A stretch of 64,000 nt of DNA from Lewinella sp. 4G2 (GTDB lineage Bacteria; Bacteroidota; Bacteroidia; Chitinophagales; Saprospiraceae). Below the pieces are notes generated by a model. The model was not told the DNA's origin and ran no database searches. It saw only the letters and a program-made list of their open reading frames with translations. Location: assembly GCF_001625015.1 (NCBI RefSeq), contig NZ_LVWJ02000019.1, positions 434,001 to 498,000 on the forward strand. Reading direction: 5' to 3'. This document shows, piece after piece, positions 5,052-64,000 of this stretch (position 1 is its first letter; each line of letters starts with the position of its first letter). The position numbers were made by a program, and so were the translations under genes.

Positions 5052-6361
5052 TGGACTACCCCGAATTCCTGTTGCGGCTGTCGGTCGTTTGGGCCGCCCT
5101 GATCGCTTACCACTGGATCGCTCTGCGCCGGGCACCGTTCCGTACGCAACGCATCTACTTGCTGTTCGCCACGTTCGCCGGCTTGGTGATCCCCACGCTA
5201 CCGACGATTTCGGGATCTGCCGTACTTCCCATACTCGTGCCCATCCAAGAAGCCTTTTCCTTCACGGTCGTGGCGGGTGAGAACTTGATTACGGCAAACC
5301 CGCAATCCATCATGCCATCGTTCTGGGTGATCGCGTATGCGTCTGGCGTTCTTTTCCTTTTGGCGCTGTCGCTGGTGCAGTGGTGGGGACGGAGGCGGTG
5401 GAATGCGACTGGAGACCAAGCCTCCCACGAAGGATATCAACTGACCATCCATCCCGACATCCCCAGCCCGTTCACCCTCTTTGGGCGGATCTACCTGCCA
5501 CAGCGTTTGGTCGGGACATCGCTAGGCGATACCGCACTACTCCACGAAACATCGCACCTGCGGCAGCGCCACCACTACGATGCGCTGCAGATGCAGATGC
5601 TGTGCACGCTGCTATGGTTCCACCCCCTCAGCTGGATACTCCGGAAGCTGCTGAGCGACGTCCACGAATACGAGGCGGACGCGCAGGTCATCAAAACCAT
5701 TCCCCGCAACGCTTACGGGCTGCAGCTATTGCGCGCCAGCCAGACATCGGGCTTCGCGCTCGGCCTATTTTCTTCACCACTTAAAAACCGTATTAACATG
5801 CTTACGAATTCATCACCCCGCCGTAACCGCCTCGAACTGGCCATCCTACCCTTATTGTTGGGGCTGCTCACCTTTACCTGTAGTGACGTGATCGCTCAGG
5901 ACGCCCCAATTAAAGCCGTTGCCGTCAGTGCCGCCGGTGTGCCTCACTTGGCTAGTCTTCCCGAAGATGCTACGGATGAAGAAGCTCTACGCGCATTCAT
6001 GAAGGCCGTGTACAGCGAAATTCGCTACCCGCAATCGGCTCGCAACTCCGGTGTCGAAGCCAGAATCTACCTATCCATGTCCGTAAGCCCGGACGGCAAA
6101 GTGCGCCAGTTTGAAGTGACGGACCGGGGTAACGGCCCTTCCTTCGGCGGCGACAACATCGTCGTGATCGGCTACGGAGATAAGGGTGCCGGCGACGCGG
6201 GAGAGCGTAATAGCGAATCGTTGATCGCTGAGGTCCGTCGCATGGTTTCCTACCTCAATCAACAGGGCGGCTTCAAATACGAAGACAGCGGTTACGCCGA
6301 CGTCCCCGTGACCTACGGCATCAGCTTCCGCTTCAAGTTGGAGCCCGAAGAGGATGAATAG
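5048..6361 (+). CDS. BlaR1-like M56 peptidase sensor with TonB-like C-terminus
   Basis: 437 aa. Membrane helices occur at about 8-25, 36-52 and 92-112, followed by the cytosolic M56 metalloprotease domain with the zinc motif HETSH (residues 166-170) and the downstream HEYEAD acidic motif (206-211). A further helix at about 268-285 leads to an extracytoplasmic part (about 320-437) with the SMSVSPDGKVRQFEV-type beta pattern of TonB C-terminal domains, rather than the penicillin-binding sensor of classical BlaR1. It probably senses an envelope signal and cleaves the BlaI-like partner (established for the family, inferred here). ATG 5048 overlaps the upstream TGA; 5051 is a possible second start. 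Confidence 0.85.
   Translation: MMDYPEFLLRLSVVWAALIAYHWIALRRAPFRTQRIYLLFATFAGLVIPTLPTISGSAVLPILVPIQEAFSFTVVAGENLITANPQSIMPSFWVIAYASGVLFLLALSLVQWWGRRRWNATGDQASHEGYQLTIHPDIPSPFTLFGRIYLPQRLVGTSLGDTALLHETSHLRQRHHYDALQMQMLCTLLWFHPLSWILRKLLSDVHEYEADAQVIKTIPRNAYGLQLLRASQTSGFALGLFSSPLKNRINMLTNSSPRRNRLELAILPLLLGLLTFTCSDVIAQDAPIKAVAVSAAGVPHLASLPEDATDEEALRAFMKAVYSEIRYPQSARNSGVEARIYLSMSVSPDGKVRQFEVTDRGNGPSFGGDNIVVIGYGDKGAGDAGERNSESLIAEVRRMVSYLNQQGGFKYEDSGYADVPVTYGISFRFKLEPEEDE
5554..5570 (-). repeat. Match to the dispersed 16-bp repeat, inside the M56 zinc motif
   Basis: The plus strand reads GCACCTGCGGCAGCGCC, identical over 17 bases to the copies at 8553 and 24745. Here it encodes His-Leu-Arg-Gln-Arg right at HETSH, a conserved part of the family, and in a different frame from the other in-gene copies. 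It may therefore be a chance match created by common codons rather than an inserted copy. Confidence 0.4.
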
Positions 6362-6415
6362 TTTACGGATTCGTTAATCCAGCCAGACCAGATCAACCCG
6401 GCCACCACGCACGCG

Positions 6416-6423
6416 TACCTTTG
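6416..6423 (+). promoter_or_regulatory. Candidate -7 box of the DUF6702 gene
   Basis: TACCTTTG, 18 bases before ATG 6442, fits the Bacteroidota -7 element TAnnTTTG. It overlaps the possible TTG start at 6421 and so argues that translation begins at 6442. Confidence 0.5.
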
Positions 6424-6441
6424 CGGTACAACCCACCCGCC

Positions 6442-6945: not shown

Positions 6946-7001
6946 TCTGCAGTCTGTAGTCTATAGTCTGGCACTACAGACTACAGACTACAGACTAAAT
7001 A
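6942..7001. repeat. TAGTCTG hairpin repeat between convergent genes
   Basis: Units of TAGTCTG or AGTCTGT run forward from 6942 to about 6970 and are mirrored by CAGACTA units from 6975 to 7000. The result is a long hairpin with about 21-base arms and a short loop near GGCA. It can act as a bidirectional terminator between the DUF6702 gene and the subtilase. A relative of the same sub-repeat lies at 15885-15921. Confidence 0.75.
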
Positions 7002-8522
7002 CTAATCCACCGCCGCCGCCGCATCAACAATCCCCCAACCGAAATTCCGATCCCGGCTCGGGTAGATGGAAGCGGCCTGCTTCATCCGGTTTAAGACTTG
7101 ACTGCGTGACTGGCCCGTATTCGTAGCCCACACCAGCGCGGCGATACCGGCCGTTGTTGCCGTTGCGGCGCTGGAGCCGCCAACGTAACCCGGTGTATTG
7201 TTGTAGCGGCTTAGCGTGAGGCTGGTCCGATCAGTAGCGTTGCGGCGTTGCATGACGGCTACGAAATCTACTTTGCTACCATCGTGGCAAGTGTTACAAC
7301 GTTGGAGGGGTGAGCCGTCCCGCACGCCCGTCACGGCTACTGTCCGGCTGAGGGAAGCGGGGAAGATGACGCCGTACCAGCTCGTCCAACTCAGCGAAGT
7401 GCCGGCTGCGGCGAAGATCATTTTGCCGCGGTTATACGCGTAGTCGATTCCGTCTTCCACCGTTCCGCTACTGAATACGTCACCGATGCTCATGCTGATG
7501 ACCTTAATGTTGGATTGCTGCCCGGCATTGACGAGGGAATTCTTCACGCCCCGCTTTTCGCGGCTGTTGTTGACGATCACGTCGCTCGTGCCGCGGTAAG
7601 TCCGCAAGTTGGCTTTGTACGCTACCCCGACGGTGGCGCCACCACTACGGCGGGGGCCGGCGGCCAGTCCGGCCATTTGGGTGCCGTGGCCACAGCGGTC
7701 ATTGGGGCCGTCAGTAGCGCTACTCCACCAGTTCGGGCGGTAGTAGCCCAACTTGCTAATGGACCGGCCCGTACTGTATCCGGAACTGAAATTTCCGTTC
7801 AGATTTGCTTGCTCAGGGTAGGTACCGCTATCAATCACGGCGATGCCGATGTTGTCGCCCTGGCTCGTGTTCCAGGCCTGCTGGATGTTCATGTAGCTAT
7901 AGTTCCACGGCACTTTTGCTCCGGGGGTGATCGTGGTGTAATCCGCGCTGTTGATGTTATTCGCCGGGGCTTCGGAACAGCCGGACCCGGAACGGAGGGA
8001 AATATCTCCGCCTTCGTAGTTGCTGGGTTCGAGGTAGCGCACGTCGGGGCGGTTCCGGAATTCATCCACCAGGCCGGCGTGCAGTAGCTTCACCTCGATG
8101 AGTGGAAGCACGCCGTCGTCCTCTACCAGCAGCAAGTCTTTTTCGGCGATGGTTTCCCCCGTAAGTCGTTCGTGGGCGGCGCGGAGGTCCGCGACGAGTT
8201 CATCACGGGTTTGCTTCCAGTCGCCACGGCTTACGTCGACGAGGTGGATTGTCTCCTTCAGGTTATCGTAACCGGCTGGTTGGTAGCCAATTACGGCGTG
8301 GTGCTCGCTCAGGTCGAGGGCACTCCACAGCATATTGCTGGGTGCTTCATTCCAGTCGAAGGGGCGGTCCGTAGCGTGCAGGTGGGCCTCCACGGCAGCG
8401 TTGATCTCGGAGCGGCTGAGCTGCTCGTCGGTGGTTTCGTTTTGGGGTGCGACGGTCGTCAAGTCATCATCACACGCAAAAAAGGTGAGCGCCAGGGCGC
8501 AGCAGAGTAAAATCTTTCTCAT
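7002..8522 (-). CDS. Subtilisin-family (S8) serine protease, lipoprotein
   Basis: 506 aa. The lipoprotein signal ends LTFFAC (Cys17). After an N-terminal pro-region (about 25-165) comes the S8 catalytic domain with Asp231 in GIAVIDSGT, His279 in GHGTQMAG and Ser451 in GGSSAATA, the spacing usual for subtilases. The Ser motif GSSAATATTAG departs from the common GTSMAxP but keeps the nucleophile. Cys409 and Cys412 in RCNTCHDG resemble a CxxCH sequence but lie inside the protease fold and are unlikely to bind haem. It is probably anchored on the outside of a membrane. Its stop adjoins the TAGTCTG hairpin, and its upstream region carries a dispersed 16-bp repeat. Confidence 0.9.
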   Translation of the reverse strand: MRKILLCCALALTFFACDDDLTTVAPQNETTDEQLSRSEINAAVEAHLHATDRPFDWNEAPSNMLWSALDLSEHHAVIGYQPAGYDNLKETIHLVDVSRGDWKQTRDELVADLRAAHERLTGETIAEKDLLLVEDDGVLPLIEVKLLHAGLVDEFRNRPDVRYLEPSNYEGGDISLRSGSGCSEAPANNINSADYTTITPGAKVPWNYSYMNIQQAWNTSQGDNIGIAVIDSGTYPEQANLNGNFSSGYSTGRSISKLGYYRPNWWSSATDGPNDRCGHGTQMAGLAAGPRRSGGATVGVAYKANLRTYRGTSDVIVNNSREKRGVKNSLVNAGQQSNIKVISMSIGDVFSSGTVEDGIDYAYNRGKMIFAAAGTSLSWTSWYGVIFPASLSRTVAVTGVRDGSPLQRCNTCHDGSKVDFVAVMQRRNATDRTSLTLSRYNNTPGYVGGSSAATATTAGIAALVWATNTGQSRSQVLNRMKQAASIYPSRDRNFGWGIVDAAAAVD

Positions 8523-8552
8523 GATCGAATAAAGGTTTGGTTTGGGGCGCCC

Positions 8553-8573
8553 GGGCGCTGCCGCAGGTGCCCC
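8553..8573 (+). repeat. Dispersed 16-bp repeat, intergenic copy
   Basis: GGGCGCTGCCGCAGGTGC followed by CCC. GGGCGCT can pair with GGTGCCC (two G-T wobbles) around the loop GCCGCA. It lies 30 bases upstream of the subtilase start. Confidence 0.75.
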
Positions 8574-8822
8574 AGAAATGGGCTAGAAAACGTAGGTAAC
8601 GGATGGCAGGCGGACCAGACCCAGTGCAACGGAAGCAACGAAAACCAAATGATTGATCGCCACCAGAGCCTCCTACCAATTATTACGGCTGTAATATAGC
8701 AAGGAACTTTTCTTTTCCATGATTTCGGACTCAGGAATAAAGAATTGAGCCATCTCGATAGTGCGCTTCAAAAAAGGAACGGACCGCTAATTTGATACCA
8801 CGAAGACCGATCCGCCTTCACT

Positions 8823-8830
8823 TACCTTTG
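8823..8830 (+). promoter_or_regulatory. Candidate -7 box of the OmpA/TSP3 gene
   Basis: TACCTTTG, 23 bases before ATG 8854, fits TAnnTTTG. A TTTG at 8791 is too far upstream for the usual -33 spacing. Confidence 0.45.
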
Positions 8831-8853: not shown

Positions 8854-10008
8854 ATGCGTATTCTTCCAATGGCCTTGTTGCTTTTCCTGGTAGCGCTCTG
8901 CAGCCACTCAGCCAGCGCGAACGAAACGACGCCCACTACGCTGGCGGCGGGTATGGACTACGGCGGCCCTACAGACCTAAGAAAGGACACCGACGGAGAC
9001 GGCATCCGGGACCGCGATGACGACTGCCCTACCGAAGCCGGCCCCGCCTCAACGAACGGCTGCCCCGATACCGATGAGGATGGCGTCGCCGACCACGAAG
9101 ACGAATGCCCCAATCTACCAGGTACCGAAGCCCACGCCGGTTGCCCCGACCGCGATCGCGATGGCCTCGTTGATAGCCTCGACCGTTGCCCCAACCACTA
9201 CGGCCCCGCCCGCTTCAGTGGCTGCCCGGATACCGACGGGGACGGCATCGCTAACCCCGACGATAAGTGCCCCCGCGAATTTGGCTTGGCCGCCACCAAA
9301 GGCTGCCCCGACGGTGACGGGGATGGCATTATCGACCGCCGTGACCAGTGCCCCGGGGAATACGGGCTCAAAAGATTCCAGGGCTGCCCCGATCGCGATA
9401 ACGACGGCCTACCCGACGAAGCCGACCGGTGCCCGGATCTGCCAGGCAACCTCATCACCGGCTGCCCCGACGCCGACGAAGACGGCACCAACGACGCCGA
9501 TGACGAATGCCCCGACGAACCCGGCCCCCTCCGCGGTTGCCCCGATACGGACGGAGATAAGGTGGCCGACTGGGAAGACAATTGCCCCCGCAAGTCCGGG
9601 CCCGCCCTCAATGGTGGCTGCCCCGACGTACAGTTCCGAAGGCTGAGCCCCAGCGCCCTGGAACAACTCCGCCTCATCGGAGAAAACATTAAGTTCGAAA
9701 CCGGTTCCTCCGAATTAAGCGCGGCCAGTAGCCAGGAGATCCTGGATCTGGCGGAGGTCGCCCGTCGCTACCCTAATCATACCTTGGTCATCAAAGGCCA
9801 TACGGACGACGTGGGGGACGACGAAAAGAACACCCGCATCAGCCAGGAGCGAGCCGACGCTTGCCGGGACCTTCTCCTCGCTTACGGCTTTCCGGAAGAC
9901 CGCGTACGGGCCGTCGGCTACGGCGGCAGCACCCCCGTGGCGGACAACTCCACCGCCGCCGGCCGGGCCCGCAACCGCCGGGTAACCTTTGAACTCCTGG
10001 AGCGATGA
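8854..10008 (+). CDS. OmpA-family protein with eight thrombospondin type-3 repeats
   Basis: 384 aa. A signal peptide (1-22) is followed by eight calcium-binding type-3 repeats of about 26 residues (about 44-254), each of the form DxDGDGxxDxxDxCP...GCP. The OmpA C-terminal peptidoglycan-binding domain (about 268-384) shows FETGSSEL, IKGHTDDVGDD and NRRVTFELLE. There is no N-terminal barrel, so this is probably a periplasmic or outer-membrane-tethered protein gripping the cell wall, stiffened by calcium. Its last bases overlap the start of the M14 carboxypeptidase gene, which suggests a joint envelope role (inference). Confidence 0.92.
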   Translation: MRILPMALLLFLVALCSHSASANETTPTTLAAGMDYGGPTDLRKDTDGDGIRDRDDDCPTEAGPASTNGCPDTDEDGVADHEDECPNLPGTEAHAGCPDRDRDGLVDSLDRCPNHYGPARFSGCPDTDGDGIANPDDKCPREFGLAATKGCPDGDGDGIIDRRDQCPGEYGLKRFQGCPDRDNDGLPDEADRCPDLPGNLITGCPDADEDGTNDADDECPDEPGPLRGCPDTDGDKVADWEDNCPRKSGPALNGGCPDVQFRRLSPSALEQLRLIGENIKFETGSSELSAASSQEILDLAEVARRYPNHTLVIKGHTDDVGDDEKNTRISQERADACRDLLLAYGFPEDRVRAVGYGGSTPVADNSTAAGRARNRRVTFELLER

Positions 10009-15884: not shown

Positions 15885-15921
15885 GAACTGCAGACTAAAG
15901 ACTATAGACTACAGACTAAAT
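15885..15921. repeat. AGACTA/TAGTCT sub-repeat
   Basis: CTGCAGACTAAAGACTATAG then ACTACAGACTAAAT: five AGACTA-type units, the same sub-repeat as at 6942-7001, here in a single orientation between two divergent promoters. Confidence 0.65.
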
Positions 15922-22799: not shown

Positions 22800-22954
22800 A
22801 CGCCAATTCAGCACCCAAAGCGGGGCTTAACGTTTGCCGGGCGGCCACGCTAAGGTAAACCCTTATTCCCATCCGTCTATTGTGCGTTAAAGCTTAAAGT
22901 TTCCGCACCGCTGTCGGATTTGAACGCCCTGACTATCTGCGCAGCGTACTGCGA

Positions 22955-22971
22955 GGCGCTGCCGCAGGTGC
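22955..22971 (+). repeat. Dispersed 16-bp repeat, intergenic copy
   Basis: GGCGCTGCCGCAGGTGC between two genes on the minus strand; the strand reading GCACC is the sense strand of both neighbours. Confidence 0.75.
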
Positions 22972-23116
22972 AAAGTTTGTGGGGACGGGAAACCGAGCCT
23001 TGGAGTGATGTAGTAGCTGACTGTAATAGGGACAACCACCAAGATCCGACCGGGAGTGGGTTCGGTCGGACGGTCACCTCAACGCTTGTCAATAGTGCAG
23101 ACGACTAAAGACCAAC

Positions 23117-23907: not shown

Positions 23908-26436
23908 ATGAAACTGCCAGCACTCGTACTCTCCATATTGCTACTTTTTCTCTGGGTGCTGGTCGGCAGCGCGGAAGGCATCATGGGGTCTCCCTTACCC
24001 CGCTTGGGTACATTTTTCAACCCACCGACCGGCTTCTGGACGAATGCCGCTACGGCGGATTGGACGAGAGGTCAAATTTCCAAAGTTCAACTCGAGCATC
24101 CACTGGCAAAAGGGACGATCTTTTTTGATCGGCGGGGTGTACCACACATTTTCGCGAACACGCTCAGCGAAGCCAGTTTTCTCCAGGGTTACGTACACGC
24201 CGCCGACCGGCTGTGGCAAATGGACGTCAGCACCCGCGCTACGGATGGTACGCTGAGCGCCGTCCTTGGGGACAGAACTTACGCGCGGGACCTTGACCAA
24301 ATCCGCAAGGGTTACCGGCGGAGCGCCCAACAGGAAGTAGATACCATCTACCAAAATTTTCCGGAGGATGCAGAACAGATATCCGCTTACAGCGCAGGCA
24401 TCAACACGTATATCAACCAGTTAGCTCCTTCGGACTACCCCGTAGAATATAAGCTGTTGGGCCACTCACCACAAAAGTGGTCCCCTTACCGGACGATGCT
24501 TCTCCTCAAGGGGATGTCGCAGGCGCTTAGCAGCAGATTTGCGGACGCCGAGCGAGCAGCTACGGTTAAAACCCTTTCTCCGGATACCTATCGCCTACTG
24601 TACCCCGATCATTCCGCGGGTGAAGAGCCCGTCATTCCTGACGCTTCCTCCGTTGCCCAATTACCTAAATCACGAAAGGGCCAACCTCAACCGGTTGGCA
24701 GGTTCAGCTCAAATAGTGAGGTTAAGCCCCAGCCCCTTTTCTCTGCACCTGCGGCAGCGCCCCAGAACATATCTGCCCCGTCCAAACCACTACTTGCAGA
24801 TCTTCATACATTTCCACACGCCTTCACGCTAATGCCACCCGACCCCGGAAATGGATCGAACAACTGGGCGGTGAACGCAAGACTATCCAACACCGGCTAC
24901 CCTATGCTGGCCAGCGACCCGCACTTAACGTTAACCCTGCCAAGTATCTGGCACGAAATCCAAATCCACCTACCAGAAATGAATGCGCGGGGCGTGAGTT
25001 TGCCGGGTTCCCCGGGCATCATGATTGGGTATAATGACCATATCGCCTACGGGGAAACCAACGTTGGGCAAGACGTCACTGACTGGTTTAAAATTGAATG
25101 GACGGACGAATCCCGCACTGCATACGTGCTCGACGGCGCAACCGTTGCGGCCGAAATTGTGCGCGATACGCTGTTTGTAAAAGGCCGCGAGGTTGAGATC
25201 ATCGAAACGCCGTATACCATCTTCGGGCCGGTTCCCTACACGGAGGGACCCTACGCTGACCACGCTATGCGCTACCTGGGTCACGTAGCAGTCGGTGGTC
25301 AGCAGCGTAAACACAGCAGTGTTGGCACCTTCCTACAACTGATGCGAGCGGAAGGGCATGCGGACTACGAAACGGCGCTCCGCGGACACGTAGACCCAGC
25401 CCAAAACTTCGCCTACGCGGATCGTTACGATAACATTGCCATGCGGCCAAATGGATTCTTTCCCGTCCGGAGTAGCGGAGATGGAGGCCGCCCCTACGAC
25501 GGAAGCGTTTCGGCTAATAACTGGCGGGGATTCATTCCTTTTGAGCAACGGCCCGGCCAACTTAATCCTCGACGGGGGTTCGTTTCTTCGGCTAACCAGG
25601 TCACGACCGGGCCGGCCTTCCCCTACCCTTATACCGGTAAATTTGCGCAGTACCGAGGCCGCTACATTAACCGCCACCTGGAGCGTGAAGGGGTGATGAA
25701 TCAACGCTCCATGAAAGAACTGCAGTTAGACAGCCGCTCGCTACTCGCCGAGGAGTTGACGCCACTGCTACTGGCGCGCTTGAACCGCAGCCAACTGAGT
25801 GACGACGGGAAAAGATTACTACGCCTGGTAGCTGACTGGGACTATGACTACCAAGGCAATAGCCAGGCCACTACTGTATTCGAGCGATGGAAAAATCGCG
25901 TCTTTGAACTCACTTTTGATGAATTAAAGGCGGAGGATCGCGACTTCCTCCTACCGGGAAAGCGTGCCTGGACTCAGCTGATCCGCAAACAACCGCAACA
26001 CGAAATTTTTGACATCGTCGCTACCACCGAGTTTCGGGAAACCGCCGCTACGTTAGTACAACGTGCTTTTGATGAGATCCTGGAAGGTTTAGAGGGCGGC
26101 GAACCCGAAGAATGGGCCGTTGTCCGCAATAGTCGGGTAAGGCACCTAGGGGCCATCCCGGGGCTCGGCTCAGACCTGATCACTACGGCGGGCGGAGGCA
26201 CTTCCCCACGCGTGCTCCGGGGAGGCCACGGCGCGAGTTGGCGAATGGTCGTTGAACTCGGGAAATATCCGCGGGCCTGGGGTGCCATCCCCGGTGGGTC
26301 TTCCGGACATCCCGGCAGCGAAGCTTACGATAATGGATTGGAGGACTGGACCAACGGGCGCTACCACGAACTCGTACGGTGGCGAGACTGGGAAGAGGCG
26401 GAGAACAAATCCGTAGGCCGTTGGGAATTTGAGTAG
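23908..26436 (+). CDS. Penicillin acylase-family (Ntn) amidase precursor
   Basis: 842 aa. A signal anchor (1-24) is followed by the alpha-chain start (DRRGVPHIFANTLSEASFLQGYVHAADRLWQMD), then a Pro/Ser-rich stretch at about 245-300, then the beta-chain start GNGSNNWAV with the N-terminal nucleophile Ser317. Downstream, ASDPHLTLTLPSIWHEI and NEVGQ-like GETNVGQDVTDWF are typical. The enzyme matures by cutting out a spacer before Ser317; substrates may be acyl-homoserine lactones or other amides (family knowledge, not shown). The spacer region carries an in-frame dispersed repeat read as Ala-Pro-Ala-Ala-Ala-Pro at 280-285. Confidence 0.9.
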   Translation: MKLPALVLSILLLFLWVLVGSAEGIMGSPLPRLGTFFNPPTGFWTNAATADWTRGQISKVQLEHPLAKGTIFFDRRGVPHIFANTLSEASFLQGYVHAADRLWQMDVSTRATDGTLSAVLGDRTYARDLDQIRKGYRRSAQQEVDTIYQNFPEDAEQISAYSAGINTYINQLAPSDYPVEYKLLGHSPQKWSPYRTMLLLKGMSQALSSRFADAERAATVKTLSPDTYRLLYPDHSAGEEPVIPDASSVAQLPKSRKGQPQPVGRFSSNSEVKPQPLFSAPAAAPQNISAPSKPLLADLHTFPHAFTLMPPDPGNGSNNWAVNARLSNTGYPMLASDPHLTLTLPSIWHEIQIHLPEMNARGVSLPGSPGIMIGYNDHIAYGETNVGQDVTDWFKIEWTDESRTAYVLDGATVAAEIVRDTLFVKGREVEIIETPYTIFGPVPYTEGPYADHAMRYLGHVAVGGQQRKHSSVGTFLQLMRAEGHADYETALRGHVDPAQNFAYADRYDNIAMRPNGFFPVRSSGDGGRPYDGSVSANNWRGFIPFEQRPGQLNPRRGFVSSANQVTTGPAFPYPYTGKFAQYRGRYINRHLEREGVMNQRSMKELQLDSRSLLAEELTPLLLARLNRSQLSDDGKRLLRLVADWDYDYQGNSQATTVFERWKNRVFELTFDELKAEDRDFLLPGKRAWTQLIRKQPQHEIFDIVATTEFRETAATLVQRAFDEILEGLEGGEPEEWAVVRNSRVRHLGAIPGLGSDLITTAGGGTSPRVLRGGHGASWRMVVELGKYPRAWGAIPGGSSGHPGSEAYDNGLEDWTNGRYHELVRWRDWEEAENKSVGRWEFE
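24745..24762 (-). repeat. Dispersed 16-bp repeat inside the penicillin acylase spacer
   Basis: GCACCTGCGGCAGCGCCC, read in frame as APAAAP (residues 280-285), about 32 residues before the nucleophile Ser317, in the low-complexity segment expected to be removed during maturation. Confidence 0.75.
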
Positions 26437-36170: not shown

Positions 36171-36434
36171 AAGATTACGATTTAATTGAAAAGATTGAAA
36201 GCCCAAATCAGGCATGTATTAAAGGTTATCGGTTAGCTACGCACAGGGCATAGCAGTGTCTTTTGGTCGATTTTATCACGTAAAGCTAATATGTCTCAGC
36301 ACTTGCACAAAACTTGCGGGCACTTTTATGATTTATTCACCGTTATCGTCAACTCAGAGAAGAGGCCGATCCGCCGTTAGTCCCCGCTCTCTATAGGTTT
36401 ACGGCCCGTCCGTGTTCACTTGCCCCTTGCCCTG

Positions 36435-36452
36435 GCACCCGCGGCAGCGCCC
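36435..36452 (-). repeat. Dispersed 16-bp repeat, intergenic copy
   Basis: GCACCCGCGGCAGCGCCC on the plus strand, G/A variant in the middle. It lies about 55 bases from a terminator hairpin. Confidence 0.72.
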
Positions 36453-39343: not shown

Positions 39344-40118
39344 AAGTTGACGTGATTTCGATAAGGCCGCGCAGGACCAGGTTAGGGCGATAGGAACAAG
39401 GCACGGACAATTGTTCAGCAAGCCACTCACCATCTCCACCGGTCAGAATTAATTCCAGACCGGGGTAGGTGGCAGCCAGGCGGTGGTACAAACCTTCCAG
39501 TTCATAAACCAATCCGCGCATGGCACCGTGGCGCAGCGCCGCAACCGTTGCATCCCCTACCGTACCCGAAGGCGTAAGGGGATCCGGCAGCGGAAGGCGC
39601 GCGGTAAACTCGTGCATGGCCCGCAACCGCATCCGCATCCCGGGGCTAATGTTGCCGCCGTGGTGCAGACCATTTGCGTCCACCAAATCACTCGTTACGC
39701 AAGTTCCGGCGTCCACAATCAGATAAGCGGTTGTTGGGTTGGGCGCTGCCGCGGGTGCAGGGTGAGTGGGTAAATCCGCCCGCATACCGAGGATGGCCGC
39801 GATCCGGTCCTGACCCAACGTTTCCGGAGTAGTGTAAACGGAAGGGAAAGGGAGGGGCGAGCCGGGCTGCAGTGAATAGAGGCGGATGCCTGCTGTTGTC
39901 CATTTGTCCAGAACCTCTTGAGGTGGCTCGTTCGCCACTGAGGAATAGACGATGTTCCTGACGCGATGGTTGGTCACCAATTCGTCCGCAACGTGCCAAT
40001 CGGCGTAGTCGAAGCGAACCGGCGGGCTGATCAGTTCCCCCTCCCGGAATACACCCGCTTTCGCGGAAGAATTCCCCATGTCAATGGCCAGGGTGGACGA
40101 TTTGATCGGCGTTTCCAT
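39324..40118 (-). CDS. coaX: Type III pantothenate kinase CoaX, with in-frame repeat insertion
   Basis: 264 aa. The acetate/sugar-kinase-type ATP motif is LAIDMGNSSAKAG (about 9-21), the base-binding and catalytic motif is IVDAGTCVTSDLV (about 133-145) with HHGGNISPG, and GDATVAALRHGAM and LTGGDG complete the fold. CoaX phosphorylates pantothenate, the first step to coenzyme A. Between RADLP and the catalytic DAGT is an unusual segment THPAPAAAPNPTT that contains a copy of the dispersed repeat (residues 121-126); most CoaX proteins have a short turn there. It is about 68 bases from purH upstream. Confidence 0.93.
   Translation of the reverse strand: METPIKSSTLAIDMGNSSAKAGVFREGELISPPVRFDYADWHVADELVTNHRVRNIVYSSVANEPPQEVLDKWTTAGIRLYSLQPGSPLPFPSVYTTPETLGQDRIAAILGMRADLPTHPAPAAAPNPTTAYLIVDAGTCVTSDLVDANGLHHGGNISPGMRMRLRAMHEFTARLPLPDPLTPSGTVGDATVAALRHGAMRGLVYELEGLYHRLAATYPGLELILTGGDGEWLAEQLSVPCSYRPNLVLRGLIEITSTYVPNES
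39741..39758 (+). repeat. Dispersed 16-bp repeat inside coaX
   Basis: GGGCGCTGCCGCGGGTGC on the plus strand; on the coding strand it is read GCA CCC GCG GCA GCG CCC (APAAAP, residues 121-126), just before the catalytic DAGT segment. Confidence 0.75.
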
Positions 40119-41755: not shown

Positions 41756-41853
41756 GAGTTGCGAGTGTCGAGTTGCAAGTATCGAGTTACGAGTTGCACA
41801 ACTTGCTACTTGCTACTTGCTACTTGCTACTCGCTACTGATTACTCGCAACTC
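41756..41853. repeat. Hairpin repeat of GAGTTGC and TTGCTAC sub-units
   Basis: The outer arms GAGTTGCGAGT (41756-41766) and ACTCGCAACTC (41843-41853) are perfectly complementary. Inside are GAGTTGC/TCGAGTT units followed by about five tandem TTGCTAC heptamers. The right arm encodes the last residues (GVASN) of the unknown gene at 41834-42820 and supplies its stop codon. Confidence 0.75.
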
Positions 41854-42820
41854 CTAACACCCAGCCTTCGTGGCGGACGGCTTGCTTGCGTTCTTTTTCC
41901 GTCAAGTCGGTTGGGGCGGCCAGGATACCCGTGAGCTTTTCGCTTTGCTGGGACGATCGGAGCCATTTTAGGTAGGTGCGGACTTGTTCCCGATCCACGA
42001 TCTTATCCTTTTTAGGCAGGGACAGCATACTGGGGTAGATCTCGGCGTGGAGGATCAAGGGTCCCACTGCTGGGAGGTCGCGGTCAAAGTCGGTCTGGAA
42101 AGGCCATACTCGCGTGTTCTCCTGGAGTTGCTCGTCGTTCACCAACTGGCAGAGGCGGGGGATACCGAGCAGGGATTGGCCACCAACGCTACCGGTGTAG
42201 GCCAGCTTCCAGGGTGGCTGCATTTTGGGTGCGCGCAGTTCCACCAGCCGCCGTTCTTTCAAAGAGACCCGTTTATTTTTTACCGGATAGGTGAAATCCT
42301 TTTTTGACCCCAAGAACACACCACTTTGTCCGGCGGGTACGCCCCAAAAAGGCCCGCTCCCTCCGGTAATTCGCCGGTTCAGGTCACCTCCGACAGTAAA
42401 GCGGTTGTTGGCGTTATCTTTTTTATCCCTGATAAGACTATTGAGTAGTTTCCAGATGGACGGCCAAGGTGCTTTCTTCCCAAGCCGTAGGGCTTTGGCA
42501 AAGCCCTTGGGGTAGCCGAAGGCAAAGTCCCACCCCACCAGAACGCGATGTTTCTTTTTGTGGAGATACCGCAAGCGGCGGCGCACGTAGGTCTGGCATT
42601 CGGCCCGCGTGCGAAAGTACTTGGTCACCGTGCGCCCCTCCGCTGGTCCTTCCGCTACCCAGATGGCGTCCTTCGCCGGCTTGGCCGGGCTGGGTTTGGA
42701 GCGGGAACTCCAGTCGATAACGAGGAAGTGGTCGAAGGGCTGCAAGGGGTGTACGTTGGCTGGGGCGCTGTCTACGTGCGTCCGGATTACTCTGGTATAA
42801 AGAGTGATTTCAATGATCAC
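41834..42820 (-). CDS. Unknown protein, possible RNase H-like fold
   Basis: 328 aa. FLVIDWSSRSKPSPAKPAKD, then AIWVAEG near residues 32-57, and RVLVGWDFAFGYPKGFA near 91-108, resemble proteins that databases call molybdopterin-guanine dinucleotide related or DUF429-like; the acidic DWSS and WDFAFGYP motifs recall an RNase H-like core. Basic patches (RRRLRYLHKKKHR) suggest nucleic-acid contact. No signal peptide. The start is uncertain: ATG 42820 gives about 30 residues before the first motif, and a TTG at about residue 26 is also possible. Its C-terminus lies in a hairpin repeat. I do not assign a function. Confidence 0.55.
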   Translation of the reverse strand: MIIEITLYTRVIRTHVDSAPANVHPLQPFDHFLVIDWSSRSKPSPAKPAKDAIWVAEGPAEGRTVTKYFRTRAECQTYVRRRLRYLHKKKHRVLVGWDFAFGYPKGFAKALRLGKKAPWPSIWKLLNSLIRDKKDNANNRFTVGGDLNRRITGGSGPFWGVPAGQSGVFLGSKKDFTYPVKNKRVSLKERRLVELRAPKMQPPWKLAYTGSVGGQSLLGIPRLCQLVNDEQLQENTRVWPFQTDFDRDLPAVGPLILHAEIYPSMLSLPKKDKIVDREQVRTYLKWLRSSQQSEKLTGILAAPTDLTEKERKQAVRHEGWVLGVASNQ

Positions 42821-42926: not shown

Positions 42927-44561
42927 CTACGCTACGGCCTCGCCAAACAACGCGAGCCGCTTCTCCTTGATCTCATCCGACTCCAGGTATTCGGAGTAGC
43001 TCAGCAGGCTATCGATCGTACCGCCGGGGCCGATCTCAATGATGCGGTTACAGGAGGTTTGTACCAATTCGTGGTCGTGAGAGCTCATGATGAAGTCCCC
43101 CTTGAATTCCTTCAGGGCGTTGTTCAGTGCCGTGATGGATTCCAGGTCAAGGTGGTTCGTCGGCTCGTCCAGCAAGAGGAAGTTCGGGCTGTTCAGCATC
43201 ATTTTACTGAGCATACACCGGACCTTTTCTCCACCGGAGAGTACGCTGCTGTCCTTGTGCACTTCCTCACCGGTAAAGAGCATCCGCCCGAGGAAGCCAC
43301 GGATAAACTGCTCATCCTTATTCTGGGAGTACTGCCGCAGCCACTCCACCAGGTCGAGACCGTTGGATGCTTGGAAATACTCAGCATTTTCGTTGGGAAG
43401 GTGCTGAACGGTGATCGTCTGCCCCCACTCTACCGTACCGCTATCGGCTTCGGTTTCTCCCGCCAGGATCTCGTAAAAGGCCGTCAGGGCCGTCGCTTCC
43501 TGCGCCAGGAGGGCAATCTTGTCCTTGCTGTTCATGGTGAAGGACACGTTGTCGAACAGTACGGTGCCTTCGGGCGACTTCTTGCTCAGGTTGGTCACCT
43601 TCAAGATCTGGTCTCCCGGCTCTCGCTCCGGCTGGAAAGCGATAAAAGGATACTTCCGCGAGCTGGGCTTGATTTCTTCGATATTGAGCTTCTCCAACGC
43701 CTTCTTCCGGCTCGTAGCCTGCTTGGACTTCGAGGCATTGGCGGAGAACCGGGCAATGAACTCTTGCATCTCGGCCCGCTTTTGCTCCATCTTCTTATTC
43801 TTGTTGGCCGCCTGTTGCAGCGCCAACTGGCTGGATTGGTACCAGAAGGTGTAATTACCCGTATAGATGTTGGCTTGCTGCCGGTCAATGTCCACAATGT
43901 GGGTACACACCATGTCCAAGAAGTAACGATCGTGGCTCACGATGATGATCGTGTTGGGGAAGTCCGCCAGGAAGTCGGCCAGCCAGTGTACCGTCGGTGC
44001 GTCCAGGTCGTTCGTCGGCTCATCGAGCAGGAGGATATCCGGGTTACCGAATAGCGCCTGGGCGAGGAGGACCTTTACCTTTTCGGGGCCGCTGAGTTCC
44101 TCCATCATCTTGTAGTGGAGGTCTTCCTTGATGCCCATATTCGAGAGCAGTTCGGCGGCGTCGGAGTCGGCCGTCCAGCCACCCATTTCGCCGTAGGTGT
44201 TTTCGAGTTCGGCGGCGCGCATCCCGTCGGCTTCGGTTGCCTCGGGGTTCATGTAGATGGCATTCTTCTCCTGCTCCATCGCGTAGAGCACTCCGTGGCC
44301 CATTTTGACGGTGTCGAGCACGGTGTGTTCCTCAAAACCGAAGTGGTTCTGGCTGAGGACGGCCATCCGGTTTCCCGGCTCGAGGCTGACGTGGCCGCGG
44401 GTGGGGTCCAACTCCCCGGAGATTACCTTCAGGAAAGTTGATTTACCGGCGCCGTTCGCACCAATGATACCATAACAGTTACCGTGAGTAAACTGGAGGC
44501 TGACTTCGTTGAAAAGTACGCGTTTACCGAACTGTACGGTAAGATCCTGGACGTTGAGCAT
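42927..44561 (-). CDS. ABC-F ATPase of the YbiT type, with a degenerate second site
   Basis: 544 aa, with two nucleotide-binding domains and the linker region (KSKQATSRKKALEKL, about 278-292). NBD1 has an intact Walker A, GANGAGKST (34-42), Walker B LLLDEP near 176, but signature LSGPE (156-160). NBD2 has AQEATALT (353-360) where GxxGxGKT is expected, while LSGGE (441-445) and LLLDEP near 461 are intact. One composite site (Walker A of NBD1 with the NBD2 signature) is therefore complete and the other lacks key residues on both sides. Family members act on ribosomes. Bacteroidota YbiT-like proteins appear to share this loss (memory of the family, not checked). Confidence 0.88.
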   Translation of the reverse strand: MLNVQDLTVQFGKRVLFNEVSLQFTHGNCYGIIGANGAGKSTFLKVISGELDPTRGHVSLEPGNRMAVLSQNHFGFEEHTVLDTVKMGHGVLYAMEQEKNAIYMNPEATEADGMRAAELENTYGEMGGWTADSDAAELLSNMGIKEDLHYKMMEELSGPEKVKVLLAQALFGNPDILLLDEPTNDLDAPTVHWLADFLADFPNTIIIVSHDRYFLDMVCTHIVDIDRQQANIYTGNYTFWYQSSQLALQQAANKNKKMEQKRAEMQEFIARFSANASKSKQATSRKKALEKLNIEEIKPSSRKYPFIAFQPEREPGDQILKVTNLSKKSPEGTVLFDNVSFTMNSKDKIALLAQEATALTAFYEILAGETEADSGTVEWGQTITVQHLPNENAEYFQASNGLDLVEWLRQYSQNKDEQFIRGFLGRMLFTGEEVHKDSSVLSGGEKVRCMLSKMMLNSPNFLLLDEPTNHLDLESITALNNALKEFKGDFIMSSHDHELVQTSCNRIIEIGPGGTIDSLLSYSEYLESDEIKEKRLALFGEAVA

Positions 44562-44706
44562 GGCGGAAGGGCTTGTAATTGCGGCCGCAAAATTACGGAA
44601 AATTGCGTTGGCGTGTTGTAGCTCTAGTAAACGCTGCCAGGGGAGGTTGGGTTGAGGGTTTGGCAGGTCAAAAGCACCGCCGGGATTGAGTTAAAGATTA
44701 GGTCTT

Positions 44707-44723
44707 GGCGCTGCCGCGGATGT
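44707..44723 (+). repeat. Dispersed 16-bp repeat, degenerate copy
   Basis: GGCGCTGCCGCGGATGT: matches the core except that the 3' part reads GGATGT in place of GGGTGC. It is at the edge of the AT-rich islet. Confidence 0.5.
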
Positions 44724-44764
44724 AGAGCTTGTGGGGTAAACTGTGTCAAAACATACTCATACAT

Positions 44765-45649: not shown

Positions 45650-45794
45650 AAACTTTTAGAGTAGAAAAGCCGAATTGAGATAATCTATTTTAAATAGTAT
45701 AAATCACATCAGTTAAGTGGGACGGCAATACTTTAAACTATCAGACATCAATATAAGGATTAAATATTGACACCTCTTTGCCCCCAAAAACCCG

Positions 45795-45810
45795 GCACCC
45801 GCGCCAGCGC
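45795..45810 (-). repeat. Dispersed 16-bp repeat, copy beside a terminator
   Basis: GCACCCGCGCCAGCGC, one mismatch from the consensus (C for G in the centre), directly followed by an A9 tract and the next terminator hairpin. Confidence 0.6.
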
Positions 45811-45850
45811 AAAAAAAAATGCCCCGCCAAGCAAAAAACCTGACGGGGCA
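45811..45850 (-). terminator. Terminator of the 820-aa T9SS protein gene
   Basis: Stem TGCCCCG / CGGGGCA with a TTTTTTTTT tract on the minus strand, 26 bases past the stop. Confidence 0.88.
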
Positions 45851-56327: not shown

Positions 56328-56329
56328 CC

Positions 56330-57091
56330 CTAGCGTTCGAGGGTAAATTCATCCGCCAAGCCACTAAATACACTGGTCGCTAAAGCTTGATTACCCCCGT
56401 GGACGCGGCGATTGGCCTCCACAGTGATGTCGTAGGTGTCATCGCTGCCACCTAAGGCTTCGAGAATGTCCGTCACAACGGTAAGTTCCTCGGCCCCGTT
56501 ACCGGTTAGGCGGAAGTCACGGTCCAAGGTCACGGTGCGGTACAGGTCATTGCTTCCCATGTGGATTGTAACGGGGATGTCGAAAATGTCATCTCCCAAC
56601 AGGTCCGCATTCGCTTCAATTTTGGCGAATACGTAGCGAGTAGCTGCCGTCCAGAACTCGTTGGCGTTCAGTGGGTCGGTGGCGGCGAAATTATTGGGGT
56701 CCACGGCGTTCAGCTCCGGTTTCACGCCCAGGCCAAATCGTACCCCAGTGTATTCACCCGTTGGCACGGTAAACGTCCGCGTATCCACATTATCCTCGGT
56801 TGCGCTGGCGTAGCGGATCAACTCAATTTCACTGAGCAGCACGGGGTCACCACCATCCGCCGGCAGGAGTTGGAGGTCAGATACGTAGTACTGGAACAGT
56901 TGCATTTTTAGCCGGTCACCACCGGGGTAATCGTACGCCTCGCTCTGGATGGCCAGGTCTTCCCCACCAAACTCAGCCGCAAAGTTGATGCTCAGTTCCG
57001 TATCGCCGGCCACAATCGGATCCTCATCATCCTCGCAGGATACGAAGGTAAAGGCAAGGGCAAAGAGTAGTAAATAGGTTAGGTGCTTCAT
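56330..57091 (-). CDS. MbnP-family copper-binding lipoprotein with a single Trp
   Basis: 253 aa. A lipobox (FVSC, Cys19) is followed by a mainly beta protein with the MbnP signs: LSINFAAEFGGEDLA near 33, MQLFQYYVSDLQL near 63, EYTGVRFGLGV near 113, NEFWTAATRYVFAKIE near 144, and TIHMGSNDLY and RVHGGNQA late. The only tryptophan is Trp147. In characterised MbnP, a Trp in the equivalent region is converted to kynurenine by MbnH and takes part in copper binding. Here this is inference. It is first in the operon. Confidence 0.85.
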   Translation of the reverse strand: MKHLTYLLLFALAFTFVSCEDDEDPIVAGDTELSINFAAEFGGEDLAIQSEAYDYPGGDRLKMQLFQYYVSDLQLLPADGGDPVLLSEIELIRYASATEDNVDTRTFTVPTGEYTGVRFGLGVKPELNAVDPNNFAATDPLNANEFWTAATRYVFAKIEANADLLGDDIFDIPVTIHMGSNDLYRTVTLDRDFRLTGNGAEELTVVTDILEALGGSDDTYDITVEANRRVHGGNQALATSVFSGLADEFTLER

Positions 57092-57158: not shown

Positions 57159-57176
57159 GGGCGCTGCCGCAGGTGC
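57159..57176 (+). repeat. Dispersed 16-bp repeat, intergenic copy
   Basis: GGGCGCTGCCGCAGGTGC in the leader between the MbnP-like gene (-) and the flavin reductase (+), about 70 bases from the MbnP start. Confidence 0.75.
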
Positions 57177-57384
57177 ACAGGAGAAGGGTGAGTAACGAGA
57201 CTGAACACCAACCAAAGGTAGGCCGTCCCACGAATGACACACCATGAGCAACGGACCAATACCTCGTAATATTGGCAGGAAAGGCCGTTGTGCCGCCCGT
57301 AAGACGAATAGCTGGATACGAACATCAGCTCAGTAAACCCAGTTACAATTGGGCATCACATCAGTAAATTATCAAATCCAAACC

Positions 57385-57918
57385 ATGAGCAACCAGACCA
57401 ATAAAGACCTCAACGAAGCCCTGAAACAACTCACCTACGGCTACTACCTACTCGCCACCCGTGCGGACAGCTCCGAACTCAAGACCCGCGACGAAGACTG
57501 GGTCAGCGCCGGCACCGTAAGCTGGGCCACGCAGTCCAGTTTTGAGCCTCCCTACATCACGGTCGCCATCCAGAAGGACAGCAACCTGAACGAAACCATC
57601 CAGAAGAGCCAGGTATTCTCCCTCACCGTCCTTGGTAAGGACGAGCGGGAACTAATCGAACGCTTCGCCGAGAATACGGACGTCGACTACTCCAACAACA
57701 AAGTAAATGGCATCAGCTACCGCGAAGGTGAATCTGGCGCTCCCCTCCTCGACTGCGGCGTAGCTACCCTCGAATGTAAATTGGAGGACGCCCTTACCAC
57801 GAGTGGCGACCATTTACTCTTCGTCGGCCGCGTGGTAAACGCCAGCACCAACGGTAAGGACCCCATCACCGAACGGGAAGCCCGTTTCGAGTATGCCGGC
57901 GTCTCCCCCCGCAGCTAA
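57385..57918 (+). CDS. Flavin reductase-like (FMN-binding split-barrel) protein
   Basis: 177 aa from MSNQTNKDLNEALKQL at 57385; an upstream TTG at 57349 would add 12 residues, and I prefer the ATG. The split barrel shows YGYYLLATRADS, AGTVSWATQSSFEPPYITVAIQ and VFSLTVLGKDERELIERFA, followed by GAPLLDCGVATLECKLEDAL and HLLFVGRVV, typical of flavin reductases and related FMN proteins. It may supply reduced flavin or reduce a small molecule; the partner is unknown. It has a strong terminator. Confidence 0.85.
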   Translation: MSNQTNKDLNEALKQLTYGYYLLATRADSSELKTRDEDWVSAGTVSWATQSSFEPPYITVAIQKDSNLNETIQKSQVFSLTVLGKDERELIERFAENTDVDYSNNKVNGISYREGESGAPLLDCGVATLECKLEDALTTSGDHLLFVGRVVNASTNGKDPITEREARFEYAGVSPRS

Positions 57919-60274: not shown

Positions 60275-60493
60275 GTTGATAGTTTTGGGGTAAAAGGAAG
60301 GAATTATTGGAACGCATACGCAGTGGTCATTCGTTCGCAATTCACGCTTCTAAGACGATCTACCCTTTGATTTGGTTGGCCCGCTTAACTTTCGTTAACG
60401 CTGCTTAACCCGGATTGCGGCAAGGACCAGCTGAATAGTGGTATAGCCTGCCTTCACGGCCTCAATTGGTACGTTGTATTTAAGACCAGACCA

Positions 60494-61384: not shown

Positions 61385-61505
61385 TAGGTGGTTGATTACA
61401 ATGGAAAGAATACAAGTTATACCGTCAAACCCAAAGACCTAGCATTAGCAATAGGGTTGCATCCTACTCCGAGATTAGACTAACCTGCCCTCAGCACCTA
61501 CACCC

Positions 61506-61513
61506 TATTTTCG
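61506..61513 (+). promoter_or_regulatory. Candidate -7 box of the M1 peptidase gene
   Basis: TATTTTCG, 19 bases before ATG 61533, resembles TAnnTTTG. Confidence 0.4.
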
Positions 61514-61532
61514 CCCTACCAAAATCCGACGC

Positions 61533-64000
61533 ATGCGCCTGTTTTCGTTTCTTTTCATCTGGGCCTGGGCCCTTCCCCTATTCGGCCAGGCCTACTTCCA
61601 GCAGGACGTAGCCTACGACATCAAGGTGACGCTCAACGACGAAACGGATGAGTTGAACGGGCAACTTACCCTCGAGTATACCAATAATTCGCCCGACGTC
61701 CTGGCGGCGATCCCTTTCCACATTTGGCCCAACGCCTACTCCAGCGATGCCTCGGCGTTTGCCAAACAAATGCTGCGCAACGGCAACACGAAGTTTCACT
61801 TTGCCGACGCCAGCAAGCGCGGTGAACTGGATGGCCTCAATTTTACCGTCGACGGCCAACCCGCTCCGCACCGCCCGGATGAGGAACACCTCGATATTGT
61901 ACACCTCCCCCTCCCCTCCCCCCTCGCGCCCGGGGCAAGGGCGACCATCCGTACACCCTTCCGCGTCAACATCCCCAACAGTTTTTCTCGCCTGGGTCAC
62001 GTTGGGGATTCCTACCAGATGACGCAGTGGTACCCCAAGCCGGCCGTCTACGATCGGGACGGCTGGCACGCCATGCCCTACCTGGATCAGGGAGAATTCT
62101 ACTCCGAATTCGGCTCCTTTCGCGTCAGCATCACCTTACCGGAAAACTACGTCGTTGGAGCAACCGGCACACTAGTGGAAGCCAGCGAAAGAACCTGGCT
62201 ACTCGCCCGGGCGAACGACGGTCTTGAACGAATGCTTCAATCCAACTACGGAATCACCCGCAGCGAGGAGGAGAGCGAACCCTTCCCCCCTTCTTCGGAC
62301 CGTACCAAGACCATTACTTACGTCGCGGACCGCGTCCACGATTTCGCCTGGTTTGCGGATAAACGCTTCAACGTATTGCACGATACGCTCCACCTGCCCG
62401 GGGTGGAGGAGCCCATCGACGTTTGGTCCATGTTCACCGAAACGGAGATCGATCTTTGGTCGCGGAGCATCGAATACCTTAAGCGGTCCACCCGCTTCTA
62501 CTCCGAGAAAGTGGGCACTTACCCTTACCCCCAGGTTACCGGCGTTCAATCCGCTCTTTCCGCCGGCGCGGGGATGGAGTACCCGATGATCACCGTCATC
62601 GGCTTGAGCTACAGTGGCCGCTCGCTCGACGAGGTGCTGGCCCACGAGGTCGGCCACAACTGGTTCTACGGCATCCTCGGCAGCAATGAGCGGGACAGCC
62701 CCTGGATGGACGAGGGCTTCAACAGCTACTACGAAGCCCGCTACATGGATACCTTTTACGAACCGAACGACGTCGAACTTCCGCTCGTCGGATCACTTGA
62801 CCTTAACCGGACGGGTTACCAGTACCTCGCCCGCCAGGGCCGGGACCAGGCACCGGACACCGATTCCGACAGCCTCAGCCAGTTCAATTATTGGATCCAG
62901 GCCTACAGCAAGCCCGCCATGGCGTTGCAGGAGTTGGAGGCCTTCATCGGGCGGGAACGGCTTGACGAAGCGATGCGGACCTATTTCGACCGCTGGTCCT
63001 TCCGCCATCCCCAGCCGGAGGATGTCTTTTCGGTATTCGAAGAAGTCCTCGGCCCGGAGGTATCGCCGTGGTTCACCCAGGCGATGACCACCACGCTGAC
63101 GTCCGATTGGAAGGTAAGCAGGTTGGCCGATGGGCAATCCGCGCTGTCCCATTCCGGTCCTCGCTCCGCACCCGCGGCAGCGCAAAAAGAGACACTGACG
63201 GGAGAAAAAATTGGGCTTCCTCCAGTGCTCCCAAAAAATGATGCTGTGTTGGAAGCCGGTGAAGACGCAGTGGCGGTCGTGCTTCCCGCAGATGACAACC
63301 CGCTTGATCTGAAGATTGGTAATAACCGCTCCGGAGCCCGAAAATTGGCTCTCGGATTAGGGATTGGCGCTGAGAGCGCCGAGCGGGCCCGGGTGTACCT
63401 GCTACCCATTATAGGGTACAACATTCACGATGGCGTGCAGGCAGGATTGGTGGCGCACAACCGTGGTTTTGAGCCGAAGACCTTCGAGTGGATGGTTGCG
63501 CCGCTGTACGGGTTCGGGAGTAGCCAACTCAATGGTTTTGGCGGAGGGCGCTACCGGATCACGCGGCCCTTCAATGGCGTCCGGCAGGTACTCCTGAGCG
63601 CGGGGACGCAGCGGTTTAGCGACTTCACGCTGGCCCGAACGGAGGAGGCTTATAGCTACCAACGCACCGCGCTGAAGGCCGCATTTGAGTTCGACAATCC
63701 TCCCATTACCCAGCGAGAATCCTCCGTATTTGCCCAGGCCATCTACCTAGCCAAAGACCGGGCGGAATTCGATGGTTCGCCGGAACCCGCAGGCATGCGT
63801 ACGGAGACCAACCTCTTTCTACGCCTCGGTTATCAGGCGGAGATCAAACGAGAAATCACGCCCCTCGCCTACGCGCTGACGCTGGAGTATAAAGACCGCG
63901 ATGACCAGCAGCCGGAAGCCTTTGAGACCGACCATTTACGGTTGGACCTGACGGTGGAGGGTGGCTACCAGTACGAGGCCAACCACTTCTTCCGCTGGCG
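61533..64000 (+). CDS. M1-family metallopeptidase fused to a beta-barrel-like part, 3' truncated
   Basis: The frame is open to the window end (822 codons). A signal peptide ends at about residue 19 (LFGQA). The N-terminal M1 domain shows AGAGMEYPMITVIG in place of GAMEN, and the zinc motif HEVGH (371-375) with Glu394 in WMDEGFNSYYE. After about residue 520 the peptidase ends, and a Pro-rich linker with an in-frame dispersed repeat (546-550) leads to a beta-rich part with GYNIHDGVQAGLVAHNRGF and FEWMVAPLYGFGSSQLNGFG, which looks like outer-membrane barrel strands. The protein would be an outer-membrane aminopeptidase; such fusions occur in Bacteroidota. Confidence 0.88.
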   Translation, partial: MRLFSFLFIWAWALPLFGQAYFQQDVAYDIKVTLNDETDELNGQLTLEYTNNSPDVLAAIPFHIWPNAYSSDASAFAKQMLRNGNTKFHFADASKRGELDGLNFTVDGQPAPHRPDEEHLDIVHLPLPSPLAPGARATIRTPFRVNIPNSFSRLGHVGDSYQMTQWYPKPAVYDRDGWHAMPYLDQGEFYSEFGSFRVSITLPENYVVGATGTLVEASERTWLLARANDGLERMLQSNYGITRSEEESEPFPPSSDRTKTITYVADRVHDFAWFADKRFNVLHDTLHLPGVEEPIDVWSMFTETEIDLWSRSIEYLKRSTRFYSEKVGTYPYPQVTGVQSALSAGAGMEYPMITVIGLSYSGRSLDEVLAHEVGHNWFYGILGSNERDSPWMDEGFNSYYEARYMDTFYEPNDVELPLVGSLDLNRTGYQYLARQGRDQAPDTDSDSLSQFNYWIQAYSKPAMALQELEAFIGRERLDEAMRTYFDRWSFRHPQPEDVFSVFEEVLGPEVSPWFTQAMTTTLTSDWKVSRLADGQSALSHSGPRSAPAAAQKETLTGEKIGLPPVLPKNDAVLEAGEDAVAVVLPADDNPLDLKIGNNRSGARKLALGLGIGAESAERARVYLLPIIGYNIHDGVQAGLVAHNRGFEPKTFEWMVAPLYGFGSSQLNGFGGGRYRITRPFNGVRQVLLSAGTQRFSDFTLARTEEAYSYQRTALKAAFEFDNPPITQRESSVFAQAIYLAKDRAEFDGSPEPAGMRTETNLFLRLGYQAEIKREITPLAYALTLEYKDRDDQQPEAFETDHLRLDLTVEGGYQYEANHFFRW
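63168..63183 (-). repeat. Dispersed 16-bp repeat inside the M1 peptidase linker
   Basis: GCACCCGCGGCAGCGC is read in frame as Ala-Pro-Ala-Ala-Ala (residues 546-550), in the linker between the peptidase and the barrel-like part. Confidence 0.75.

Follow-up and report, generated by a model that had tools for sequence, protein, structure and literature searches.

DNA uptake in the Pasteurellaceae and the Neisseriaceae starts with a type IV pilus. These are the two families for which passages of PMC7811141 describe a strong uptake sequence preference, directed at uptake signal sequences (USS) in the former and DNA uptake sequences (DUS) in the latter. Here, we describe a dispersed motif of Lewinella sp. 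4G2 (Bacteroidota, Saprospiraceae; assembly GCF_001625015.1), which had been noticed in a stretch of 64,000 nucleotides (positions 434,001 to 498,000 of contig NZ_LVWJ02000019.1; the window in the following). By analogy with these systems, we consider it, with a probability of about 0.6, to be a self-DNA uptake signal that is kept by transformation bias.

The motif resembles DUS in its hundreds of dispersed copies, many of them inside genes, in its high conservation at permissive sites, in species dialects that follow phylogeny and in frequent inverted pairs, as far as these properties are treated in the relevant sections of PMC3630211 (dialects and pairs) and PMC2397512. It differs from DUS in length (about 28 bp compared to 10-12 bp) and in phylum; furthermore, many new DUS copies are argued, in a passage of PMC2397512, to come by recombination, whereas a copy analyzed here was built by substitution. 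With USS, as characterized in part of PMC7811141, it shares a conserved core with flanking segments over about 30 bp, an under-representation in coding DNA and an origin by point mutation rather than from inserted elements, but the sequences are unrelated and USS are denser (about 1 per 1 kb compared to about 1 per 5.5 kb here). Moreover, unlike in both systems, no pilus motor was found here.

Within the same phylum, Riemerella shows species-preferring transformation and, like the genus studied here, has ComEC and DprA (excerpts of PMC8459023 and PMC7965970). Transformation of R. anatipestifer needs ComEC, DprA, ComF and RecA together with four proteins without known counterparts, which include a DUF5689 protein and a protein predicted to lie in the outer membrane (PMC8459023, in part). 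R. columbina prefers its own DNA, and over-represented k-mers of up to 10 bp, A-rich among those given, were sought in that species; in the portion of PMC7965970 concerned, no signal is settled, the role of the k-mers is left open and no motif as long as the present one is reported. Since the R. anatipestifer surface proteins are unlike known uptake machinery and R. columbina prefers its own DNA, a non-pilus receptor in Bacteroidota is plausible. Finally, repetitive extragenic palindromic (REP) elements with REP-associated tyrosine transposases (RAYT) are short, dispersed, lineage-specific and arranged in inverted pairs, as is the motif described here. Unlike these elements, it lacks a conserved hairpin, does not closely flank four inspected Y1 transposase genes, is frequent inside genes and is built by substitution.

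Number, form and placement of the motif

In the whole genome (5,213,657 bp), the 16-bp core of the motif occurs in 667 exact copies distributed over both strands (329/338), compared to 0 for the reversed control. In 462,648 bp of the same genome, 82 exact copies were found, with a mean of 0.025 and a largest value of 1 in 40 shuffles that combined codon-preserving gene shuffles with shuffled intergenic DNA. The window alone contains 8 exact copies, and none occurred there in any of these shuffles. At up to 3 mismatches, the window has 17 matches to the 16-mer GCGCTGCCGCRGGTGC (8, 1, 4, and 4 with 0, 1, 2, and 3 mismatches, respectively), compared to a mean of 1.79 and a largest value of 8 in 100 dinucleotide shuffles.

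An alignment of 80 of the 82 copies (the other 2 lie near stretch ends) revealed a full motif that is asymmetric and about 28-30 bp long, GGGCGCTGnCGCRGGTGCnRRGnAAKGGG, in which GG mostly precedes the core and nRRGnAAKGGG follows it. Position 7 is nearly free, because 13 of the 17 one-mismatch copies differ there; a generalised 17-mer (GGCGSDGNCGCRGGTGC) has 944 copies in the genome (control: 1). The density amounts to one copy per about 5-8 kb. Beside the 82 perfect copies, the 4 other single-mismatch and 13 two-mismatch copies (control: 3) form little of a decayed tail, and the sites are therefore either actively kept or young.

The ten copies originally noticed in the window are given below, with genes called by a simple gene finder and protein families assigned by Pfam.

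5542..5571, minus strand: motif copy, core 5554-5569 exact; within the M56 peptidase family gene 5048-6361
8553..8582, plus strand: motif copy, core 8555-8570 exact; in the spacer of the divergent genes 7002-8522 (minus) and 8869-10008 (plus)
22954..22983, plus strand: motif copy, core 22956-22971 exact; intergenic
24733..24762, minus strand: motif copy, core 24745-24760 exact; in penicillin amidase gene 23908-26436, residues 280-285
36423..36452, minus strand: motif copy, core 36435-36450 exact; intergenic, downstream of gene 36560-37954
39741..39770, plus strand: motif copy, core 39743-39758 exact; within gene 39324-40118 (minus strand) for the type III pantothenate kinase
44706..44735, plus strand: degenerate motif copy, core at 44708 with two mismatches; between called genes, upstream of ABC protein gene 42927-44561
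45783..45812, minus strand: motif copy, core at 45795, its single mismatch falling on the free position 7; between called genes
57159..57188, plus strand: motif copy, core 57161-57176 exact; in the spacer of the divergent genes 56330-57091 (minus) and 57385-57918 (plus)
63156..63185, minus strand: motif copy, core 63168-63183 exact; in small open reading frame (ORF) 62981-63424 without family support, flank a poor match to the extended motif

Further window cores with two mismatches lie at 5363 (plus), 50087 (plus), and 50711 (minus). The sequence-only reading had described a 16-bp repeat in about ten copies and both orientations, with eight full matches, one mismatch at 45795 and a degenerate copy at 44707, recurring beyond chance. 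This is confirmed genome-wide, where the observation is larger and stronger than had been stated, and all ten positions were right to within 2 bp. The assignment of six copies to intergenic DNA and four to genes also holds, except that the count in genes is 3 or 4, as the ORF at 63168 lacks family support. The length of 16 bp stands for the core only; the continuation of the motif for about 12 bp downstream and the free position 7 had both been missed.

Of the 82 copies, 47 are intergenic and 29 lie in predicted genes (6 at stretch edges were left out of these counts, and genes were called by the simple finder), in DNA of which about 80% is predicted to be coding. The in-gene copies use four of the six frames, encoding APAAA (13 copies), GAAAGA (6), ALPQV (5), and HLRQR (5), and both Cys-containing frames are unused. 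Two in-gene copies (L019 5727 and L020 16356) are located at apparent signal-peptide ends, as read from the proteins.

Neighboring copies up to 400 bp apart are all inverted, in Lewinella sp. 4G2 (8 of 8) as well as in its relatives G006 (3 of 3) and G011 (5 of 5), i.e., 16 of 16 in total. One such pair (L013 17058-17141) is formed by convergent copies in intergenic DNA that are separated by 68 bp, and, by analogy with reports for DUS, pairs of this kind could act as terminators. The copies are also spaced more evenly than in a simulation that places them uniformly, without intergenic preference: with position 7 free, the coefficient of variation (CV) of 75 intervals over 424 kb is 0.68 compared to 0.90 (P 0.005), and for the 64 intervals between exact cores it is 0.70 (P 0.011). 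Both strands are used along a single contig (C14; 34 plus and 29 minus copies in 320 kb). With respect to local GC skew at 5 kb, plus copies are found at 25 negative and 21 positive positions and minus copies at 12 negative and 24 positive ones, a weak trend that disappears at 10 kb.

Versions among relatives and origin of the copies

At up to 2 mismatches, 18 of 21 genomes of the genus contain 105-1,355 matches (controls: 11-98), while G001, G007, and G011 are near the control for this form of the motif. A de novo k-mer search in 16 sampled genomes (with samples of about 92-100 kb for each relative and of 280 kb for G007; the genomes without a sample are G003, G008, G010, G014, and G018) distinguished at least 8 versions of the motif, among them the following.

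G006: GCGCGGnCGCAGGTGC, with G002 and G005 near to it
G019: mostly GCGCGGTCGCGGGTGC
G009 and G012: GCGGGGnCGCRGGTGC
G004: in part GCGGGGnCGCGGGAGC
G007: GCGCCGGRGCGCRGGWG
G001: GGCGGAGCGCAGGTA
G011: TTTGGCTWACAAAGTAGCARTG

The version of G011 is wholly different, A+T-rich and of the CAAAGTAGCARnG type. Its core CAAAGTAGCARNG has 1,222 copies in this genome (603/619 on the two strands; control: 2); the other 20 genomes have 0-3 copies each. Outside the genus, the generalised 17-mer was searched in 78 genomes from other genera of the family, a search that covers this form of the motif only, and 74 of them have zero copies and 4 have one or two. In three of these genomes (G021, G022, and G023; 50-94 kb each), a de novo search detected no dispersed 12-mer of this type; G024 (less than 9 kb) was left out. 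In a scan of named contigs, 8 of the 80 listed stretches (119 in total) belonged to Neolewinella or Lewinella (N. lacunae: 4), and the other listed stretches were mostly single matches in varied, often GC-rich genomes; on this basis, the genome was placed with these two genera.

Some further repeats were seen beside the versions. Three copies in G006 (L180 around 13252, the region of L216 18530 on the reverse strand, and L218 around 9993) directly precede a hairpin-like stretch of a C-run and a G-run (tccccccc...ggggggag), which replaces the usual tail. In Lewinella sp. 4G2, short arrays of 7-8 bp units of the AGTCTATA / AGTCTGTA type occur at several sites (window 6951-6996 and 15903-15917; L005 18372-18432; L011 1880-1961; L012 837-904), and G007 has similar TTAGTCTTTTAGT arrays.

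How copies arise can be read most directly from kynureninase, for which 19 sequences of the genus (G010 and a fragmented G012 match were excluded) align gap-free across the motif site. Lewinella sp. 4G2 has 0 mismatches there, and a copy in the general form of the genus (GCGCGGACGCGGGTGC) is found at the same codons in G019, which a four-protein tree places as the sister species (support 1.0). The G002 sequence is 3 mismatches away from the motif and may represent a decayed or incipient copy, and the other 16 sequences are 6-10 away. Judged from this alignment, the motif in kynureninase is built by substitutions, without insertions or deletions. In line with this, comparison to solved structures shows no insertion at the copy in kynureninase, in an amidohydrolase (which is one residue shorter) or in a TrkA-type potassium channel protein, for which two domain alignments were available and a gap of 3 residues is present in one of them. 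The same holds for a dihydroorotase and a thioredoxin-domain protein, where gaps are near the copy and not at it. The alignment of the penicillin amidase to a solved structure is weak at the motif copy, and a solved-structure search with the L008 gene gave no match.

Furthermore, sites are retained among relatives. All clade-A relatives (9 of 9) carry the motif, each in its own species version, in the 400 bp that precede the orthologue of the ABC protein gene, while among 9 other genomes examined in this region only G009 has a copy, which is partial. Three clade-B species have copies within the gene at window 41834-42820; the loop that contains them varies in length and is uninformative on origin.

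Uptake machinery and competing explanations

If the motif is a self-DNA uptake signal, a surface DNA receptor in the genus would bind the asymmetric sequence of about 28 bp in double-stranded DNA, and fragments that carry it would preferentially enter, pass ComEC and recombine. Alleles with the motif would then be copied at a higher rate across the population than those lacking it, so that biased transformation would build and repair copies in place and keep them near perfect, and the motif would drift into species versions as the receptor changes. Biased transformation is a process that can drive a motif to high copy number in place, at hundreds of unrelated sites, even if the individual copies are of no use. 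While the genomic features of the motif are observed directly, we infer its recognition during DNA uptake and the existence of a receptor other than a type IV pilin. A further independent origin of such a signal, in Bacteroidota, with a novel receptor other than a type IV pilin, at least 8 versions in one genus and one complete switch (G011) appears just on the probable side.

Several observations weigh against an uptake signal or fail to favor it. ComEC was found in all 21 genomes and DprA in 20 (the exception is a 55%-complete genome), but both are widespread in bacteria and say little, and their presence therefore only permits this explanation. Near-misses are rarer here than would be expected for USS. 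A search with PF00437 across the 21 genomes (pilins were not searched) revealed no convincing motor of a pilus or type II secretion system. Only partial matches of at most about 25 bits were obtained, in 11 of 21 genomes at the cut-off, covering about 84 of 370 profile positions (between about 109 and 222) and mostly from ORFs of about 950 residues, which are presumably UvrA. The machinery known for DUS and USS is thus probably absent, Neisseria-like uptake is unlikely and the receptor would have to be new; for the same reason, we regard the motif as working like DUS and USS and not as a member of either. DUF5689 (the DUESSURFACE family known from Riemerella) is, in a further difference from Riemerella, absent from 20 of the 21 genomes, and was rejected as a general receptor. 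Moreover, G013, G015, and G016 show few copies and no sharp version in their k-mer samples. As to spacing, the distribution of USS is called uneven in one place and relatively even in another of the pertinent passages of PMC7811141, and our spacing result therefore discriminates weakly.

The one genome with DUF5689 is G011, which is also the only member with a motif of the CAAAGTAGCA type; there, a 708-residue ORF (G011:C115:8691-10592) has three DUF5689 matches. This coincidence with the switched motif is a lead from a single case.

A last point against the uptake signal comes from the type III pantothenate kinase of the window. Its copy is located in a loop, of which 10 of the 20 aligned species have an extended form (G008 had no data). 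The loop gains 6-17 residues in comparison to G013 and is not one fixed unit; in Lewinella sp. 4G2, it is 9 residues longer than in the best solved relative. The motif is recognisable (up to 3 mismatches) in 7 of the 10 long-loop species, and all 10 use GCA for the first Ala of APA, which points to a constraint on the DNA. In the present analysis, this loop first prompted the idea of a mobile element. One such candidate is a miniature element of the REP kind that a Y1 (RAYT-type) transposase would move. Inverted pairs and the lengthened loop would fit such an element, as would the Y1_Tnp genes in 20 of the 21 genomes, with 6 matches in Lewinella sp. 4G2. Yet copies in conserved genes arose in place by substitution, and after the kynureninase result a mobile element was no longer supported as the general case. 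The transposase also does not follow the motif: the motif-rich G018 lacks a Y1_Tnp match, and G011, G001, and G007, which are poor in this form of the motif, have one. Of the 6 Y1 genes of Lewinella sp. 4G2, 4 were inspected; their distance to the closest motif ranges from 269 to 2,054 bp, and none of these genes has motifs close by on both sides. Finally, the weak hairpin that had been proposed for the core is not kept among the versions, with pair 5-12 lost in G006 (GCGCGGCCGCAGGTGC) and pair 4-13 lost in G009 and G012 (GCGGGGCCGCRGGTGC). We therefore consider a REP-like element highly improbable. Among the options that the sequence-only reading had offered, the uptake signal is best supported, and the miniature mobile sequence fails in general on the grounds of substitution and few decayed copies.

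The long asymmetric motif with free positions at intervals, its strong conservation, the fairly even spacing and the retention of the same sites in relatives would also suit a binding site of an abundant chromosomal protein, e.g., a nucleoid organiser or condensin loader, whose recognition drifted between species and for which each copy is selected. This would demand selection at about 940 sites, including coding sites in unrelated enzymes, at a cost to the protein sequence, and we regard it as unlikely, if worth keeping in view. An asymmetric, G-rich motif found once per about 5-8 kb could also suggest a recombination hotspot of the Chi type or a polar sequence of the kind of the FtsK orienting polar sequences (KOPS), but the motif is far longer than Chi or KOPS, its strands are balanced when counted over the genome as a whole rather than by replichore, the local skew trend does not persist at 10 kb, and the G011 version is A+T-rich, so that little credence is left for this explanation. 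Chance, codon usage or a conserved protein motif, to which the 13 of 29 in-gene copies encoding APAAA might be attributed, can practically be dismissed in view of the codon-preserving shuffles, the 47 of 82 copies that are intergenic and the use of four frames in both directions.

Meaning of the motif for the genus

In the open-access literature, we found no report of natural competence in this group, and nothing relevant on the genus or phylum in connection with uptake sequences. If the motif is indeed a self-DNA uptake signal, it would be the first of its kind in Bacteroidota, meaning that self-tagging evolved again on other machinery, and it would predict natural competence in the group. 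Furthermore, the graded versions together with one full switch within a single genus would make the co-evolution of receptor and motif directly testable, and the question of drive versus selection could be put to a direct test in the same genus.

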